A DNA stretch of 64,000 nucleotides from Sanguibacter sp. HDW7. Lineage in GTDB: Bacteria > Actinomycetota > Actinomycetes > Actinomycetales > Cellulomonadaceae. A program made the translations under genes and the position numbers. Shown here piece by piece: positions 14,930-30,300 of the stretch (the first letter of the stretch is position 1; each line of letters starts with the position of its first letter). The notes under the pieces were generated by a model. It saw only the letters and a program-made list of their open reading frames with translations. It ran no database searches and was not told the DNA's origin. Location: assembly GCF_011300875.1 (NCBI RefSeq), contig NZ_CP049862.1, forward strand, positions 1,550,001-1,614,000. The letters are read 5' to 3'.

Positions 14930-16360
14930 ATGCGCAGAGCGAAGATTGTTTGCACCATCGGTCCCGCGACCGCCTCCGCGGACCAGATCCAGAACCTCGT
15001 CGACGCCGGCATGGACGTCGCCCGAATCAACAGGAGCCACGGAGCTCCGGACGAGCACGAGCTCGTCTACCACAACGTGCGGGCCGCTGCGGCGTCCGCG
15101 AACCGCCCCGTCGCGGTGCTCGTCGATCTCCAGGGCCCCAAGATCCGTCTCGGCAAGTTCGAGAAGGACGAGAAGTACTGGCTCGAAGAGGGCGACATCT
15201 TCACGATCACGACGGACGACGTCGTGGGCACCAAGGAGCTCGTCTCGACGACCCACAAGGGCCTTCCGGGCGACGCCCGTGTCGGCGACCCGATGCTCAT
15301 CGACGACGGCCGTGTCCTCGTCCGCATCATCGAGGTCGAGGGCCCGCGTGTCGTCACGCGTGTCGAGGTCGCTGGTCCCGTCTCCAACAACAAGGGCATC
15401 AACCTGCCCGGCGTCGCCGTCTCCGTCCCCGCCATGTCCGAGAAGGACGAGGAGGACCTCCGCTGGGCGATCCGCCTCGGTGCCGACATCATCGCCCTGT
15501 CGTTCGTCCGCAACGCGGCCGACTACAACGACGTGCGTCGCATCATGGAGGAGGAGGGTCGCATCCTCCCCGTCATCGCCAAGGTCGAGAAGCCGCAGGC
15601 GGTCGACAACCTCGAGGAGATCGTCGACGCGTTCGACGGCATCATGGTCGCCCGTGGCGACCTGGGCGTCGAGCTCCCGCTCGAGCAGGTCCCGCTCGTC
15701 CAGAAGCGCGCTGTCGAGCTCGCCCGCCGCAACGCGAAGCCGGTCATCGTCGCGACGCAGGTCCTCGAGTCGATGATCTCGGCGCCGCGTCCGACGCGTG
15801 CCGAGGCCTCCGACTGCGCGAACGCCGTCCTCGACGGTGCTGACGCGGTCATGCTCTCGGGCGAGACGTCGGTCGGCGACTACCCGATCGAGGCCGTGCG
15901 CACGATGGCCCGCATCATCGAGTCGACCGAGGAGCACGGCCGGGAGCGCATCGCGCCCCTCGGCTCGACGCCTCACACGCGCGGTGGCGCCATCACGCGT
16001 GCCGCTGCCGAGATCGGTGAGCGCGTGGGCGTGAAGTACCTCGCGACGTTCACGCAGTCGGGTGACTCGGCGCGTCGTATGTCGCGCCTGCGCTCGTCGA
16101 TCCCGCTCATCGCGTTCACGCCCGACGCGTCGGTCCGCAACGTCCTCGCGCTCAGCTGGGGCGTGCAGGCCGAGCTCGTCGACCAGGTGGCGAACACCGA
16201 CGCGATGGTGCAGCTCGTCGACCAGACGCTCCGCTCGAAGGAGCTCGTCGAGGACGGCGAGTACGTCGTCGTCGTCTCGGGCGCCCCGGTCGGCGTCATC
16301 GGTTCGACGAACAACATCACGGTCCACAAGATCGGTGAGTCGACGGGCCGCATCGCCTGA
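14930..16360 (+). CDS. pyk: Pyruvate kinase
   Basis: Transfers phosphate from phosphoenolpyruvate to ADP, the last step of glycolysis. The 476-residue protein has the expected barrel motifs: KIVCTIGPA (4-12), LVDLQGPKIRLG (about 64), the catalytic MVARGDLGVELPLEQVP (about 240-256) and LDGADAVMLSGETSVGDYP (about 302-320). The usual N-F-S-H-G near residue 29 is N-R-S-H-G here, an odd substitution beside the active site. Start ATG 14930 follows TAGGCT (14917-14922) by seven bases, so the mRNA is probably leaderless. A 19-pair hairpin follows at 16373-16414. Confidence 0.97.
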   Translation: MRRAKIVCTIGPATASADQIQNLVDAGMDVARINRSHGAPDEHELVYHNVRAAAASANRPVAVLVDLQGPKIRLGKFEKDEKYWLEEGDIFTITTDDVVGTKELVSTTHKGLPGDARVGDPMLIDDGRVLVRIIEVEGPRVVTRVEVAGPVSNNKGINLPGVAVSVPAMSEKDEEDLRWAIRLGADIIALSFVRNAADYNDVRRIMEEEGRILPVIAKVEKPQAVDNLEEIVDAFDGIMVARGDLGVELPLEQVPLVQKRAVELARRNAKPVIVATQVLESMISAPRPTRAEASDCANAVLDGADAVMLSGETSVGDYPIEAVRTMARIIESTEEHGRERIAPLGSTPHTRGGAITRAAAEIGERVGVKYLATFTQSGDSARRMSRLRSSIPLIAFTPDASVRNVLALSWGVQAELVDQVANTDAMVQLVDQTLRSKELVEDGEYVVVVSGAPVGVIGSTNNITVHKIGESTGRIA

Positions 16361-16507: not shown

Positions 16508-16987
16508 ATGGCGCGGACGAGCGAGTTTGACGAGGCAGGTGCACGGTTCCTCGCGGCCGGGCGCATCGCGGTGACGGGCGTGTCACGCACGCCGGGCTCG
16601 CACGGCGGCAACGCCGTGTACGTCGGGCTGCGCAAGGCGGGGTTCGACGTCGTCCCGATCAACCCGGCTGCGACCGAGGTCGAGGGGGACCCTGCGTATC
16701 CCGACCTGGCTGCGGTGCCCGGCGGGGTGGCGGCCGTCGTCGTGGCGACCGCGCCCTCGCAGGTGGCGGCCACCGTCGATCAGGCTGTCCGCCTCGGCGT
16801 CGGATACCTGTGGATGCACAGGACGATCGATGCGGGCAGCGTCGACGAGGCGGCGGCGGCCCGTGCGCGGGAGGCGGGCATCGAGGTGCTCGTCGGGGGC
16901 TGCCCGCTCATGCACCGCGATGCTGGGGACCGGGGCCACCGGGTGATGTGTGGCGTTCTCCGCGTGCTGGGGCGCGTGCCGCGCTGA
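16508..16987 (+). CDS. CoA-binding domain protein (YccU-like)
   Basis: A 159-residue single-domain protein with a Rossmann-type CoA-binding fold: IAVTGVSRTPGSHGGNAVY (about 19-37) for nucleotide binding, VVPINPAATEVEG (about 49-61), VVVATAPSQVAATVDQAV (about 79-96) and GCPLMHRD (about 134) at the end. Proteins of this kind resemble the CoA-binding part of succinyl-CoA synthetase, but their role is unproven. ATG 16508 is preceded by an AGGAGAAGG Shine-Dalgarno. It is monocistronic, convergent with the tRNA-like gene, and shares the palindrome at 17019-17041. Confidence 0.85.
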   Translation: MARTSEFDEAGARFLAAGRIAVTGVSRTPGSHGGNAVYVGLRKAGFDVVPINPAATEVEGDPAYPDLAAVPGGVAAVVVATAPSQVAATVDQAVRLGVGYLWMHRTIDAGSVDEAAAARAREAGIEVLVGGCPLMHRDAGDRGHRVMCGVLRVLGRVPR

Positions 16988-17018
16988 GCGACGGTCCCGT
17001 CCCGTGGACGGCTCACGA

Positions 17019-17041
17019 CCCGGCCACCTGAGGCGGCCGGG
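17019..17041. terminator. Bidirectional hairpin between the CoA-binding gene and the tRNA-like gene
   Basis: CCCGGCCACC pairs with GGCGGCCGGG around TGA, with one A-C mismatch. It lies between convergent genes, so it could stop both. Confidence 0.6.
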
Positions 17042-17069
17042 CCGTGCCGGCGCCGACGGGCGCCGCGGG

Positions 17070-17143
17070 TGCCCCGAGTGGGATTCGAACCCACACTGGA
17101 TCGGGTTTGAGCCGAACGCCTCTGCCGGTTGGGCTATCGGGGC
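17070..17143 (-). tRNA. tRNA with anticodon CAA (Leu-like) but a short, class I variable loop
   Basis: Read on the minus strand the 74-base gene folds as a cloverleaf: acceptor GCCCCGA/TCGGGGC (seven pairs), a three-pair D stem GCC/GGC with a ten-to-eleven-base loop containing GG, anticodon arm TTCGG-CTCAAAC-CCGAT (anticodon CAA; top pair T27-T43 mismatched), variable loop CCAGT (five bases), T arm GTGGG-TTCGAAT-CCCAC and discriminator A73. CCA is not encoded. CAA reads the leucine codon UUG and the D arm and A73 look leucine-like, yet true leucine tRNAs have a long variable arm. A TATGCT box (complement 17159-17164) places a start about eight bases before the 5' end. It may be a specialised tRNA or a decayed one. 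Confidence 0.85.
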
Positions 17144-17158
17144 CGGGACGGGCGCCCC

Positions 17159-17164
17159 AGCATA
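17159..17164 (-). promoter_or_regulatory. -10 box for the CAA tRNA gene
   Basis: TATGCT on the minus strand ends 15 bases before the mature tRNA 5' end; a start about seven bases downstream of the box gives a leader of about eight bases. No convincing -35 is seen. Confidence 0.5.
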
Positions 17165-17177
17165 TCGCCCGCAACGT

Positions 17178-17223
17178 GGTGCGACGCACCTTGTGGTCCT
17201 GCGCCGCTGCGGAGCGCGACCAC
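17178..17223. repeat. Inverted repeats before the pdtaR promoter
   Basis: GGTGC-GAC-GCACC at 17178-17190 (with one extra base) and a larger inverted repeat with arms GTGGTC (17193-17198) and GACCAC (17218-17223), containing nested GCGC arms, lie just before the TAGGAT box of pdtaR. They could be operator sites. Confidence 0.4.
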
Positions 17224-17236
17224 GTAGGATGTGGGC

Positions 17237-17902
17237 GTGACCGAGAACGAGAAGAGCCCCGAGAAGATCGAGCTGGACCTGCCGCCCCTCCTCGAGCCGG
17301 AGGCGGAGAAGCCGGCCGCTGCCGGTCGTGTCCGTCGTGCGGTCGTGGCGGAGGACGAGGCGCTCATCCGCATGGACGTCGTCGAGACGCTCCGCGAGGC
17401 GGGCTTCGACGTCGTCGGTGAGGCGGGTGACGGTGAGACCGCGGTCGCGCTCGCGATCGAGCACAAGCCGGACGTCGTCGTCATGGACGTGAAGATGCCC
17501 GAGCTCGACGGCATCTCGGCAGCCGAGCGGATCGCGAAGGCGCACGCTGCGCCGGTCGTGCTGCTCACGGCCTTCTCGCAGACGGAGCTCGTCGAGCGGG
17601 CGCGTGACGCAGGCGCGATGGCGTACGTCGTCAAGCCGTTCAGCCCTGCTGACCTGCTTCCGGCCGTCGAGATCGCGATCTCGCGCTACACGCAGATCTC
17701 GGCGCTCCAGGACGAGGTCGCAGACCTGCAGGAGCGCTTCGAGACGCGCAAGCACGTCGACCGTGCCAAGGGTCTGCTCATGACGAAGATGGGTCTGTCG
17801 GAGCCGGAGTCGTTCCGCTGGATCCAGAAGACGTCGATGGACCGTCGTCTCACGATGCGTGAGGTCGCGGACGCTGTCATCGACCAGGTCGGCAAGGACT
17901 GA
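17237..17902 (+). CDS. pdtaR: Response regulator with ANTAR RNA-binding domain (PdtaR type)
   Basis: A 221-residue two-component regulator. After a 35-residue acidic leader comes a receiver domain with the phosphorylation pocket (VVAEDEALIR, VVVMDVKMPELDG with the acceptor aspartate about 83, LLTAF and VVKPF), then a short coiled coil (about 155-175) and a C-terminal ANTAR domain (RAKGLLMTKMGLSEPESFRWIQKTSM split over about 176-205). ANTAR domains bind paired hairpins in mRNA and act as antiterminators. The position before polA matches the actinobacterial PdtaR locus; its sensor kinase is elsewhere. GTG 17237 follows TAGGAT (17225-17230) by six bases, so the transcript is probably leaderless. 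Confidence 0.95.
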   Translation: MTENEKSPEKIELDLPPLLEPEAEKPAAAGRVRRAVVAEDEALIRMDVVETLREAGFDVVGEAGDGETAVALAIEHKPDVVVMDVKMPELDGISAAERIAKAHAAPVVLLTAFSQTELVERARDAGAMAYVVKPFSPADLLPAVEIAISRYTQISALQDEVADLQERFETRKHVDRAKGLLMTKMGLSEPESFRWIQKTSMDRRLTMREVADAVIDQVGKD

Positions 17903-28493: not shown

Positions 28494-30077
28494 TCAGGCG
28501 TTGCGGCGACGCACTGCCAGGAGGGCGATGCCCCCGAGGATGAGCACGAGCGCGATGCCCGAGCCGAGTGCTGCCTGGGCGCCGGTGACGGGGAGACCGC
28601 CCTCGGGCGACTCGTCGCCGTCAGGTGTCGTGCCGTCGGTGGGCTCGCCCTCCTCGGACCCGACACCACCGTCGGGGTCGTCCGTGGTCGTGCCGTCGGT
28701 CGGCTCCTCGGTGGACTCGCCCGTGGTCGGGTCGTCCGTGGGGCTGCCGGTGGCCGTGGGCGTCGGGGTGGGCGTGCCCGTGCTGGTGGCCGTGGGCGTC
28801 GGGGTGGGCGTGCCCGTGCTGGTGGCCGTGGGCGTCGGGGTGGGCGTGCCCGTGCTGGTGGCCGTGGGCGTCGGGGTGGGCGTGCCCGTGCTGGTGGCCG
28901 TGGGCGTCGGGGTCGACGTGCCCGTGGGGGTGACCGTCGGCGTGGGGCTCGAACCCGGGAGCGTGCCGGTGAACGGGTACGCGTGAAGCTCGTTGCCGCC
29001 GCTGCCCGCGTGGACGAGGTTGCCCGCGACGAAGATACGGCCGTTGGCGCCCGGGATGGTGATCGTCGTCGTCGACGCAGGGTTGCCGACCATGATCGAG
29101 CCGGTCGTCTGTGCGCTGCCCGAGAAGGCGACGGTCGTCGCGTCGGGAACATTCCACAGGATGTTACGTGAGACGCGGGCCGTGGCCGTGGTGGCGCTGT
29201 CCACACCGTTGAGCTTGACGTCGACGGTGCCCGTGCCGGGGACGTTGATGATGACCGTCGCGCCCGCGGGGATGCCACCGAAGGTGAGGTCCTGGGCAGG
29301 GGCCGCGCCGGTCCCGGTGTGGACCGGGTAGGTGAAGACCTGCAGCATCGAGGTGCCGTCGCCCGTCGCCTTGAGGTAGGGCCCGTCCGGGGCGATGGTT
29401 CCCGTCGTGGGCAGCGCCTTGAGGGAGGCGGAGCGGGCCGTGAGGTTCGTCACCGCGTTGTCGTACAGCGCGCCGATACCGGCGCGCTTGACGACGCCGC
29501 CAGCAGGCTGGCCCGGAAGGGACTGGAAGCTTGGCGTGCCCGTGAGCGTGCCGCTGTGGGCGATCCAGTAGGGGTAGTTGGTGGAGCCCGCGAAGCTCAC
29601 GACCGTGAGCTTCGTCGTCACCGTGAGGTTGCCGCCGACCTGGAGGACCTCGGTGCCGGGAGGGGCCACGATGCGCGAGCCGACGCCTGCGATGCCGAAG
29701 TAGTAGTCGGGATTCTGCGCGAACGTCGCATTGCCCCGCACGATCATGCGGCCCTCGGCCTCGGTCGCGCCCGCGGTTGCCGTGAAGTCTCCGCCGACGA
29801 ACGTGTTGATCGCGTTGTCGTTGTGGATCGGGTTGCCGTTGGAGTTGATGATCGTGTCGAGCTCCGCGCTCGTCGGGCACGGGAACAGCGCGTCCGTCGA
29901 GGTGATGCATCCACCCGGCGTGCCGTCGGTCTCGGCGGCGGGGGCTGCGAAGGCGTCGGTCACGGCGATCGAGCCGAGGGCCCCACCGACGGCGAGTGCC
30001 ACGACGCCCACGGCGGCGAGTGCTCGTCGGGTGGTCTGCCAGCGGGAGGTGCGCAGGTTTGTGGTGAGGGTGCTCAT
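28494..30077 (-). CDS. Choice-of-anchor A family surface protein with LPVTG sorting signal
   Basis: A 527-residue secreted wall protein. It has a signal peptide (TRRALAAVGVVALAVGGALG, then an AFA-A type cleavage site about 44), a choice-of-anchor A domain (about 90-385; INTFVGGDFTATAG near the start, GNLTV, GRIFVAGNLVHAG at the end), a Thr/Pro stalk with repeated GTPTPTPTATST units (about 395-450), an acidic Thr/Glu/Asp segment and a sortase signal LPVTG followed by a membrane helix and RRRNA tail. Such proteins sit in the cell wall and often act in adhesion or ice/sugar binding; this is inferred. The ATG at 30077 has a GGAG site. It looks like an accessory gene placed between coaE and uvrB; composition does not differ obviously from the core. 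Confidence 0.9.
   Translation of the reverse strand: MSTLTTNLRTSRWQTTRRALAAVGVVALAVGGALGSIAVTDAFAAPAAETDGTPGGCITSTDALFPCPTSAELDTIINSNGNPIHNDNAINTFVGGDFTATAGATEAEGRMIVRGNATFAQNPDYYFGIAGVGSRIVAPPGTEVLQVGGNLTVTTKLTVVSFAGSTNYPYWIAHSGTLTGTPSFQSLPGQPAGGVVKRAGIGALYDNAVTNLTARSASLKALPTTGTIAPDGPYLKATGDGTSMLQVFTYPVHTGTGAAPAQDLTFGGIPAGATVIINVPGTGTVDVKLNGVDSATTATARVSRNILWNVPDATTVAFSGSAQTTGSIMVGNPASTTTITIPGANGRIFVAGNLVHAGSGGNELHAYPFTGTLPGSSPTPTVTPTGTSTPTPTATSTGTPTPTPTATSTGTPTPTPTATSTGTPTPTPTATSTGTPTPTPTATGSPTDDPTTGESTEEPTDGTTTDDPDGGVGSEEGEPTDGTTPDGDESPEGGLPVTGAQAALGSGIALVLILGGIALLAVRRRNA
28750..28929 (-). repeat. 36-bp tandem repeat encoding the Thr-Pro stalk
   Basis: Four identical 36-base units (28750-28785, 28786-28821, 28822-28857, 28858-28893) and one diverged unit (28894-28929) lie in frame inside the surface-protein gene. 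Each encodes GTPTPTPTATST. Copy number is likely to vary by slippage without breaking the frame. Confidence 0.95.
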
Positions 30078-30300
30078 CGTGCTCCGGGGTGGTCGGCGTT
30101 GGTAAGGAAGGATAACTAAGTCAAGGGTAGTGAGAGTTCGTCTGGTTGCGCTAGATGCTGACGCTGCGTCTCGGGTGATGTTTGACCAGCGACCCGACGC
30201 GGAGCCGGTGCTGCGACGCGCAGTTGTGTCACCACGGGTCGTCGAACGTCGTTCGCGGGCGTCAGGCGGGATTGTCGGAGGCTCGGCGTACCGTTGCACC

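Follow-up and report, generated by a model that had tools for sequence, protein, structure and literature searches.

The gene on the reverse strand at 17070-17143 of the window (the whole stretch of 64,000 nucleotides that was analysed) raises the question of how a tRNA with the leucine anticodon CAA comes to have the short variable loop of a class I tRNA. An earlier note had taken known bacterial leucine tRNAs to be class II, and had offered as explanations a special-purpose or regulated tRNA, a non-ribosomal use of its charged form, or a decayed copy. The analysis leads to a different answer: the gene very probably encodes an ordinary UUG-reading tRNALeu, in the short-arm class I form common to many Actinomycetota, and a presumed substrate of LeuRS. 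The argument draws on what the gene looks like and how many copies there are, on the conservation of its locus, on covariation in its stems, on the almost complete absence of genomes with both short and class II forms, and on the leucine meaning of UUG. The features of the locus are as follows.

14930 to 16360, forward strand: pyruvate kinase (pyk; Pfam PK and PK_C), the second neighbour in many loci.
16508 to 16987, forward strand: CoA-binding domain protein of 159 aa (Pfam CoA_binding_2), between pyk and the tRNA gene and converging on the latter.
17019 to 17041, reverse strand: G+C-rich hairpin without a U run, read by eye, downstream of the tRNA gene and before the converging gene; a possible terminator.
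17070 to 17143, reverse strand: tRNA-Leu(CAA), 74 nt, with the class I variable loop CCAGU (direct reading, ARAGORN and RF00005).
17159 to 17164, reverse strand: TATGCT, a putative -10-like hexamer read by eye, 15 nt upstream of the tRNA gene.
17231 to 17902, forward strand: ANTAR-domain response regulator of the pdtaR type (Pfam Response_reg and ANTAR), the divergent neighbour and a conserved marker of the tRNA.

ARAGORN reports a tRNA-Leu(CAA) at 17068-17143 on the minus strand, and Rfam RF00005 matches the gene over its full length (17070-17143, minus strand) with 54.3 bits against a gathering score of 29 (E = 6.4e-9), well above what chance would give, which bears out the nearly complete leucine-type cloverleaf described by the earlier note. 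Read directly, the acceptor and T stems are perfect, the D stem of 3 bp (GCC/GGC) is intact and the CAA anticodon stands in a 7-nt loop, CUCAAAC, the direct reading, ARAGORN and RF00005 all giving a full cloverleaf. The variable loop has 5 nt, short of the 10 nt or more of a class II arm, while position 73 is A, U27 and U43 face each other unpaired and CCA is not encoded, all as had been noted. The missing CCA is usual here, since only 7 of 46 distinct tRNA sequences read in this genome encode it. Folding of the unmodified single strand was of little help: at the predicted energy minimum the acceptor stem, the T stem and the greater part of the anticodon stem form, though not the D arm, and the fold z-score is modest (-1.93). 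As for the -10 box said to stand about 15 bases upstream, TATGCT is indeed found 15 nt from the gene, but a consensus scan of 16950-17300 gave no sigma-70 promoter, so that the box counts as a by-eye feature only; a scan of the same interval for terminators was also negative. The gene is carried by a prokaryote-genome contig of 3351553 bases rather than by an organelle genome of the animal mitochondrial type.

A search of the whole genome with RF00005, with anticodons read by ARAGORN, gave 52 tRNA genes, an inventory limited to the genes which that model detects. Apart from the short gene, none of these has the anticodon CAA, and the single UAA tRNA, encoded outside this locus, also has the short form. 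Conversely, the four CUN leucine tRNA genes (CAG, TAG and two with GAG) are class II and 83-86 nt long. The normal class II CAA copy for which the earlier note had proposed to look was not found among the 52 genes.

The premise that bacterial leucine tRNAs are class II does not hold in this phylum, as the short form is widespread in Actinomycetota. A covariance model built from five short sequences, R1, gave a match above 85 bits in all 19 of a set of genomes comprising this one and 18 relatives, the other reported matches reaching at most 63.3 bits; at E<=1e-13 it matched 102 of 396 genomes of the phylum (this one included), the anticodon being TAG in a few. When short UUR-Leu tRNAs were sought by sequence pattern, 119 genomes matched, from which 21 were removed as spurious, namely 20 of family f17, whose 52-nt matches are read as GTTC inside a class II arm (some of these genomes having AT-rich chance matches in addition), and G065, a chance match alone. 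A short UUR-Leu tRNA is thus present in 98 of the 396 genomes, with CAA in 29, UAA in 85 and both in 16. Six genomes of genus g20 carry a short CAA gene beside pdtaR and pyk with D-loop variants that were missed by both patterns and found by R1.

Short and long forms of one isoacceptor hardly ever share a genome. Among the 396, UAA is short in 85 and long in 167, with no genome holding both against 35.8 expected; CAA is short in 29 and long in 269 (the 297 with any CAA match minus the 28 with a short one alone), with one genome, G284, holding both against 19.7 expected. These tests treat related genomes as independent, and some tRNAs escape the patterns, so that the p-values serve as a rough guide and the near-zero overlap is the main point: the short UUR-Leu tRNA replaces, rather than joins, the class II isoacceptor. 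Alone among the 29 short-CAA genomes, G284 also has a long CAA; its short copy (G284:C1:2228435-2228483) is atypical and possibly part of a mobile element. Shortening is not strictly limited to UUR, since short class I tRNA-Leu(TAG) genes exist in genomes of family f34; a short CUN tRNA is a rarity, met with in 6 of 296 genomes (L345-L350), all with TAG and five from this one family, and R1 found a further short tRNA-Leu(TAG) in G329 (L156), also of f34.

The locus itself is conserved in named organisms. At least 119 stretches from genomes of named species were retrieved, with a short tRNA-Leu(CAA) called by ARAGORN in all 119 among the matches listed; by record title at least 109 are actinobacterial, from genera such as Mycobacterium, Corynebacterium, Rhodococcus, Streptomyces, Bifidobacterium, Gardnerella, Micromonospora, Nocardioides and Cellulomonas. 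The comparison of the same locus across Actinobacteria that the earlier note had recommended came out in favour of conservation: among the matches listed, 86 of the 109 actinobacterial loci have pdtaR no more than 1 kb away, 1 has pyk alone and 22 have neither. Those 22 comprise 11 Corynebacterium loci, some others near the end of a stretch, and four with several tRNAs (L211, L231, L239 and L283), again among the matches listed. Outside the class of the present organism, pdtaR is nearby in 4 of 5 CAA loci. A few record labels look doubtful: the tRNA of Sphaerisporangium L199 is identical to that of Cellulosimicrobium L234 and its PdtaR is 84% identical to the one in the window; one and the same tRNA sequence is found in Xylanimonas L247, the Propionibacterium MAG L291 and Actinomyces L293; and the tRNA of the B. 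breve MAG L227 is unlike those of the other bifidobacteria compared.

Could the short gene have been gained horizontally, a phage or mobile tRNA-array gene having replaced the host tRNA? Short tRNA-Leu genes do occur in phages, and ten non-actinobacterial records among the matches listed (Elusimicrobia, Chloroflexaceae, Microcoleus, Nostoc, Synechococcales, Acidobacteria, Pyrinomonadaceae, Phycisphaeraceae, Phycisphaera and Sandaracinaceae) hold it in stretches with 3 to 31 tRNAs, at least 13 in nine of the ten. Moreover, some species of genera g123 and g130 have a short UAA and others a long one, so that the state does change, and the two genera offer a good system for dating arm loss or exchange. 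Against such a gain stands the pdtaR neighbourhood of the CAA gene, which is kept both within the class and in the loci outside it and which favours old vertical descent at this locus; here, the gene is the sole tRNA of the 64-kb window, with neither a dense tRNA cluster nor an integrase nearby. A horizontal origin is on balance unlikely, an ancient gain being possible. Nine of the non-actinobacterial stretches (L209, L224, L236, L269, L271, L276, L279, L281 and L286), with 13-31 tRNAs, carry class I tRNALeu genes, several of the records with more than one anticodon.

The use of UUG bears on a second alternative, that of a regulated tRNA reserved for a rare codon or a leucine donor to non-ribosomal enzymes. 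UUG makes up 15 of the 1820 leucine codons in the 44 predicted genes of the window and UUA none, so the short tRNA does serve a rare codon here. Of those 15, 6 fall in the 119-codon ORF at 29746-30105, which may have been predicted wrongly as a gene. Both UUG and UUA are nevertheless used in the aligned genes of relatives that have the short tRNA (664 and 321 codons respectively), the same form is carried by Gardnerella, Bifidobacterium and Corynebacterium, and the neighbours pyk, the CoA-binding protein and pdtaR form no obvious biosynthetic cluster. A special purpose is accordingly highly improbable, although the tRNA may have an additional regulatory role beside UUG decoding.

What UUG means in these relatives was read from eight window proteins compared with the 109 actinobacterial loci among the matches listed, UUG being present in 88 of them. 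It fell at window leucines in 438 of 664 cases (66%), compared with 67% for CUG, 66% for CUC and 68% of 321 for UUA. Since this alignment itself read UUG as leucine, it was redone with all six leucine codons masked, giving 436 of 664 (66%) for UUG, 66% for CUG, 65% for CUC and 65% for UUA. Judged from these alignments, UUG is leucine in the relatives that have the short tRNA.

Comparison of the leucine tRNAs reveals both constraint and a change of the core. The set comprised 278 distinct sequences, of which 273 were parsed and 5 were unreadable by the parser; non-actinobacterial, phage and plasmid loci and the actinobacterial multi-tRNA loci L231, L239 and L283 were left out of the tallies. 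All 107 distinct actinobacterial short CAA sequences have A73, U8, A9, C13 and C12-G23, and 104 have U48, with the reservation that U8, a purine at 9, A14-A15, GGNAGA and GTTC are not independent evidence in pattern-selected loci, the search patterns having required T8, R9, A14-A15, GGNAGA and GTTC. Their variable loop is of 5 nt throughout (107 of 107), with CAG in the middle in 95. The D stem is fully paired in all 107 while 10-25 and 11-24 vary widely (10-25 is G-C in 60, U-A in 30, C-G in 14 and A-U in 3), and hence covaries. Long CAA sequences (n = 23) invariably have G9 and G12-C23, and 22 of them have G13, while short UAA sequences (n = 61) all have C13 and C12-G23, with A9 in 56, G9 in the other 5 and a loop of 6 or 7 nt in 9, and long UAA sequences (n = 29) have G9 and G12-C23 throughout; the variable arms of the long CAA and UAA forms that were measured span 13-19 nt. 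On this comparison several core positions change together with the loss of the arm, with few exceptions: A9, C13, C12-G23 and a compact loop that is mostly NCAGU. Over 42 positions outside the D and variable regions, the nearest-neighbour value of short CAA is 0.83 to short UAA and 0.80 to long CAA, which as a hint of its origin places it closer to short UAA by a slight margin.

Such constraint is hard to reconcile with a pseudogene of a class II tRNA-Leu that decayed after losing its arm. Features that could hint at decay are the unpaired U27-U43, the missing CCA and a low Rfam score, within roughly the bottom ten for the 52 tRNA genes of this genome. However, the conserved stems of the gene are retained with one anticodon-stem mismatch, and relaxed constraint is not seen. 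One unpaired anticodon-stem position occurs in 50 of the 107 short CAA sequences, and U27-U43 itself recurs in relatives (5 of 107); the lack of CCA is shared with most tRNAs of the genome, the locus is conserved outside the class, and decay would have befallen the sole CAA tRNA found, in a family whose D stems covary and whose A73 is invariant. Decay is therefore barely credible. Charging by a synthetase other than LeuRS, with UUG reassigned, can be given next to no credence: a class I shape is unusual for leucine, but UUG aligns to leucine at the rate of CUG and CUC, masked or not, the D loop AAYYGGCAGA, A73 and A15-U48 match those of class II leucine tRNAs, and the phage that, in the accessible text of PMC10865867, is reported to interrupt a mycobacterial CAA gene carries a class II tRNA-Leu(CAA).

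The preferred reading, that of an ordinary UUG-reading tRNALeu, requires LeuRS to accept a substrate that lacks the long arm. As far as the available text of PMC9976931 goes, leucine identity in E. coli resides in A73, A15-U48, G18G19 and A20a and not in the long arm, and a tRNALeu truncated to remove this arm stays active. The whole of that identity set is present in the short tRNA-Leu(CAA). LeuRS would recognise A73, the elbow of the D and T loops (G18-G19 and A20a) and the A14 and A15-U48 core and, since all of these elements are present, the long arm would be dispensable. The short tRNA would then be charged by LeuRS and handled by the translation machinery like other class I tRNAs, with UUG being read, while absence of the arm should remove a SerRS contact and the core change (A9, C12-G23, C13 and the compact loop) may compensate for the lost arm.

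One LeuRS exceeds the family cut-off in this genome, and its alignment with solved bacterial LeuRS reaches the C-terminal end. In this enzyme (L188:1501-4407, minus strand), some 50 residues (around 180-232) lie between the pieces that match the solved bacterial LeuRS. Of 30 genomes chosen for comparison, 29 gave a match at 1e-60 and G284 gave none. The match was nearly full-length in 17 of the 29 (13 with a short tRNA and 4 without) and partial, starting near residue 231-235, in the other 12 (8 with and 4 without). The stretch of about 50 residues ahead of that start is thus unrelated to tRNA class in these 29 genomes. As the extent of the match, the sole feature compared, did not track the class, no adaptation of LeuRS was found.

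The short tRNA-Leu(CAA) shares A73, a 3-bp D stem, the AA..GGCAGA D loop and A15-U48 with bacterial class II tRNALeu, such as the CUN tRNAs of this genome and the long CAA of relatives, likewise a presumed substrate of LeuRS; it differs in having a loop of 5 nt instead of 13-19 nt, A9 instead of G9, C12-G23 instead of G12-C23 and C13 where G13 is mostly found. With the animal mitochondrial tRNALeu(UUR), described in the accessible part of PMC9976931, it has in common the reading of UUR and a leucine identity without the long arm, but the present gene is chromosomal and bacterial, faces a bacterial LeuRS and coexists with CUN isoacceptors that keep the arm. Short-loop tRNALeu of phages and tRNA clusters are also class I tRNALeu, and similar genes occur in phages; the tRNALeu(TAG) which the available text of PMC6582537 places in a mycobacterial tRNA cluster is an extra gene beside a class II isoacceptor, whereas here the short tRNA is the sole CAA decoder found and occupies a conserved chromosomal locus. 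Loss of the long arm from a tRNA family is described in the same portion of PMC9976931 for tRNATyr outside Bacteria, where the tyrosine family has changed and not, as here, mainly the UUR half of a leucine set.

In the accessible part of that 2023 review (PMC9976931) tRNALeu is long-armed everywhere except in animal mitochondria, and in that of a review of unusual tRNAs (PMC7609411) it is placed in class II; PMC4932002 lists the Streptomyces CAA gene, and the word 'variable' was not found in its main text. In the open-licence PMC literature, part of whose text was covered, we found no report of a chromosomal short tRNALeu(UUR) as sole decoder in Actinomycetota, although an earlier one may exist. 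A tRNALeu without the long arm is already known from animal mitochondria and, with TAG, from the mycobacterial cluster, so that it is the phylum-wide UUR form that may be new.

Phages add a possible natural experiment. According to the available text of PMC10865867, the attB of phages Omega and Gaia lies at the tRNA-Leu-CAA gene of M. smegmatis; Omega rebuilds the tRNA, whereas Gaia does not and carries its own copy. This copy, a tRNA-Leu(CAA) next to the Gaia integrase (L353:11121-11204), belongs to class II, its variable arm of 15 nt reading UGUCCGCAAGGACGU. In Baka (Omegavirus) a presumed, unannotated attP beside the integrase matches the 3' part of a mycobacterial short tRNA, including the loop ACAGU. 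Judging from this presumed attP and from the other mycobacteria compared, whose CAA genes are class I, the M. smegmatis CAA gene is probably short. If so, Gaia lysogeny would replace a class I by a class II tRNA in living cells, a possible natural swap.

At its widest, the analysis suggests a tentative picture, possible rather than probable, in which the UUR half of the Actinomycetota leucine set has moved to a distinct architecture (A9, C13, C12-G23, NCAGU), with recurrent exchange between it and class II forms as well as tRNA arrays of phages or mobile elements. UUR and CUN decoding would then be structurally separate, and arm-sensing toxins, modification enzymes and regulators could hit one half alone. 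Many actinobacterial records, for example those of Mycobacterium, Corynebacterium, Bifidobacterium and Streptomyces, contradict the long-arm rule for leucine of the review. They supply natural paired substrates, class I and class II tRNALeu for one LeuRS, with which to test the role of the arm, and the linked core positions provide a set for class switching. At the same time they are a warning for annotation and for genetic-code engineering, where the long arm is the presumed hallmark of leucine.
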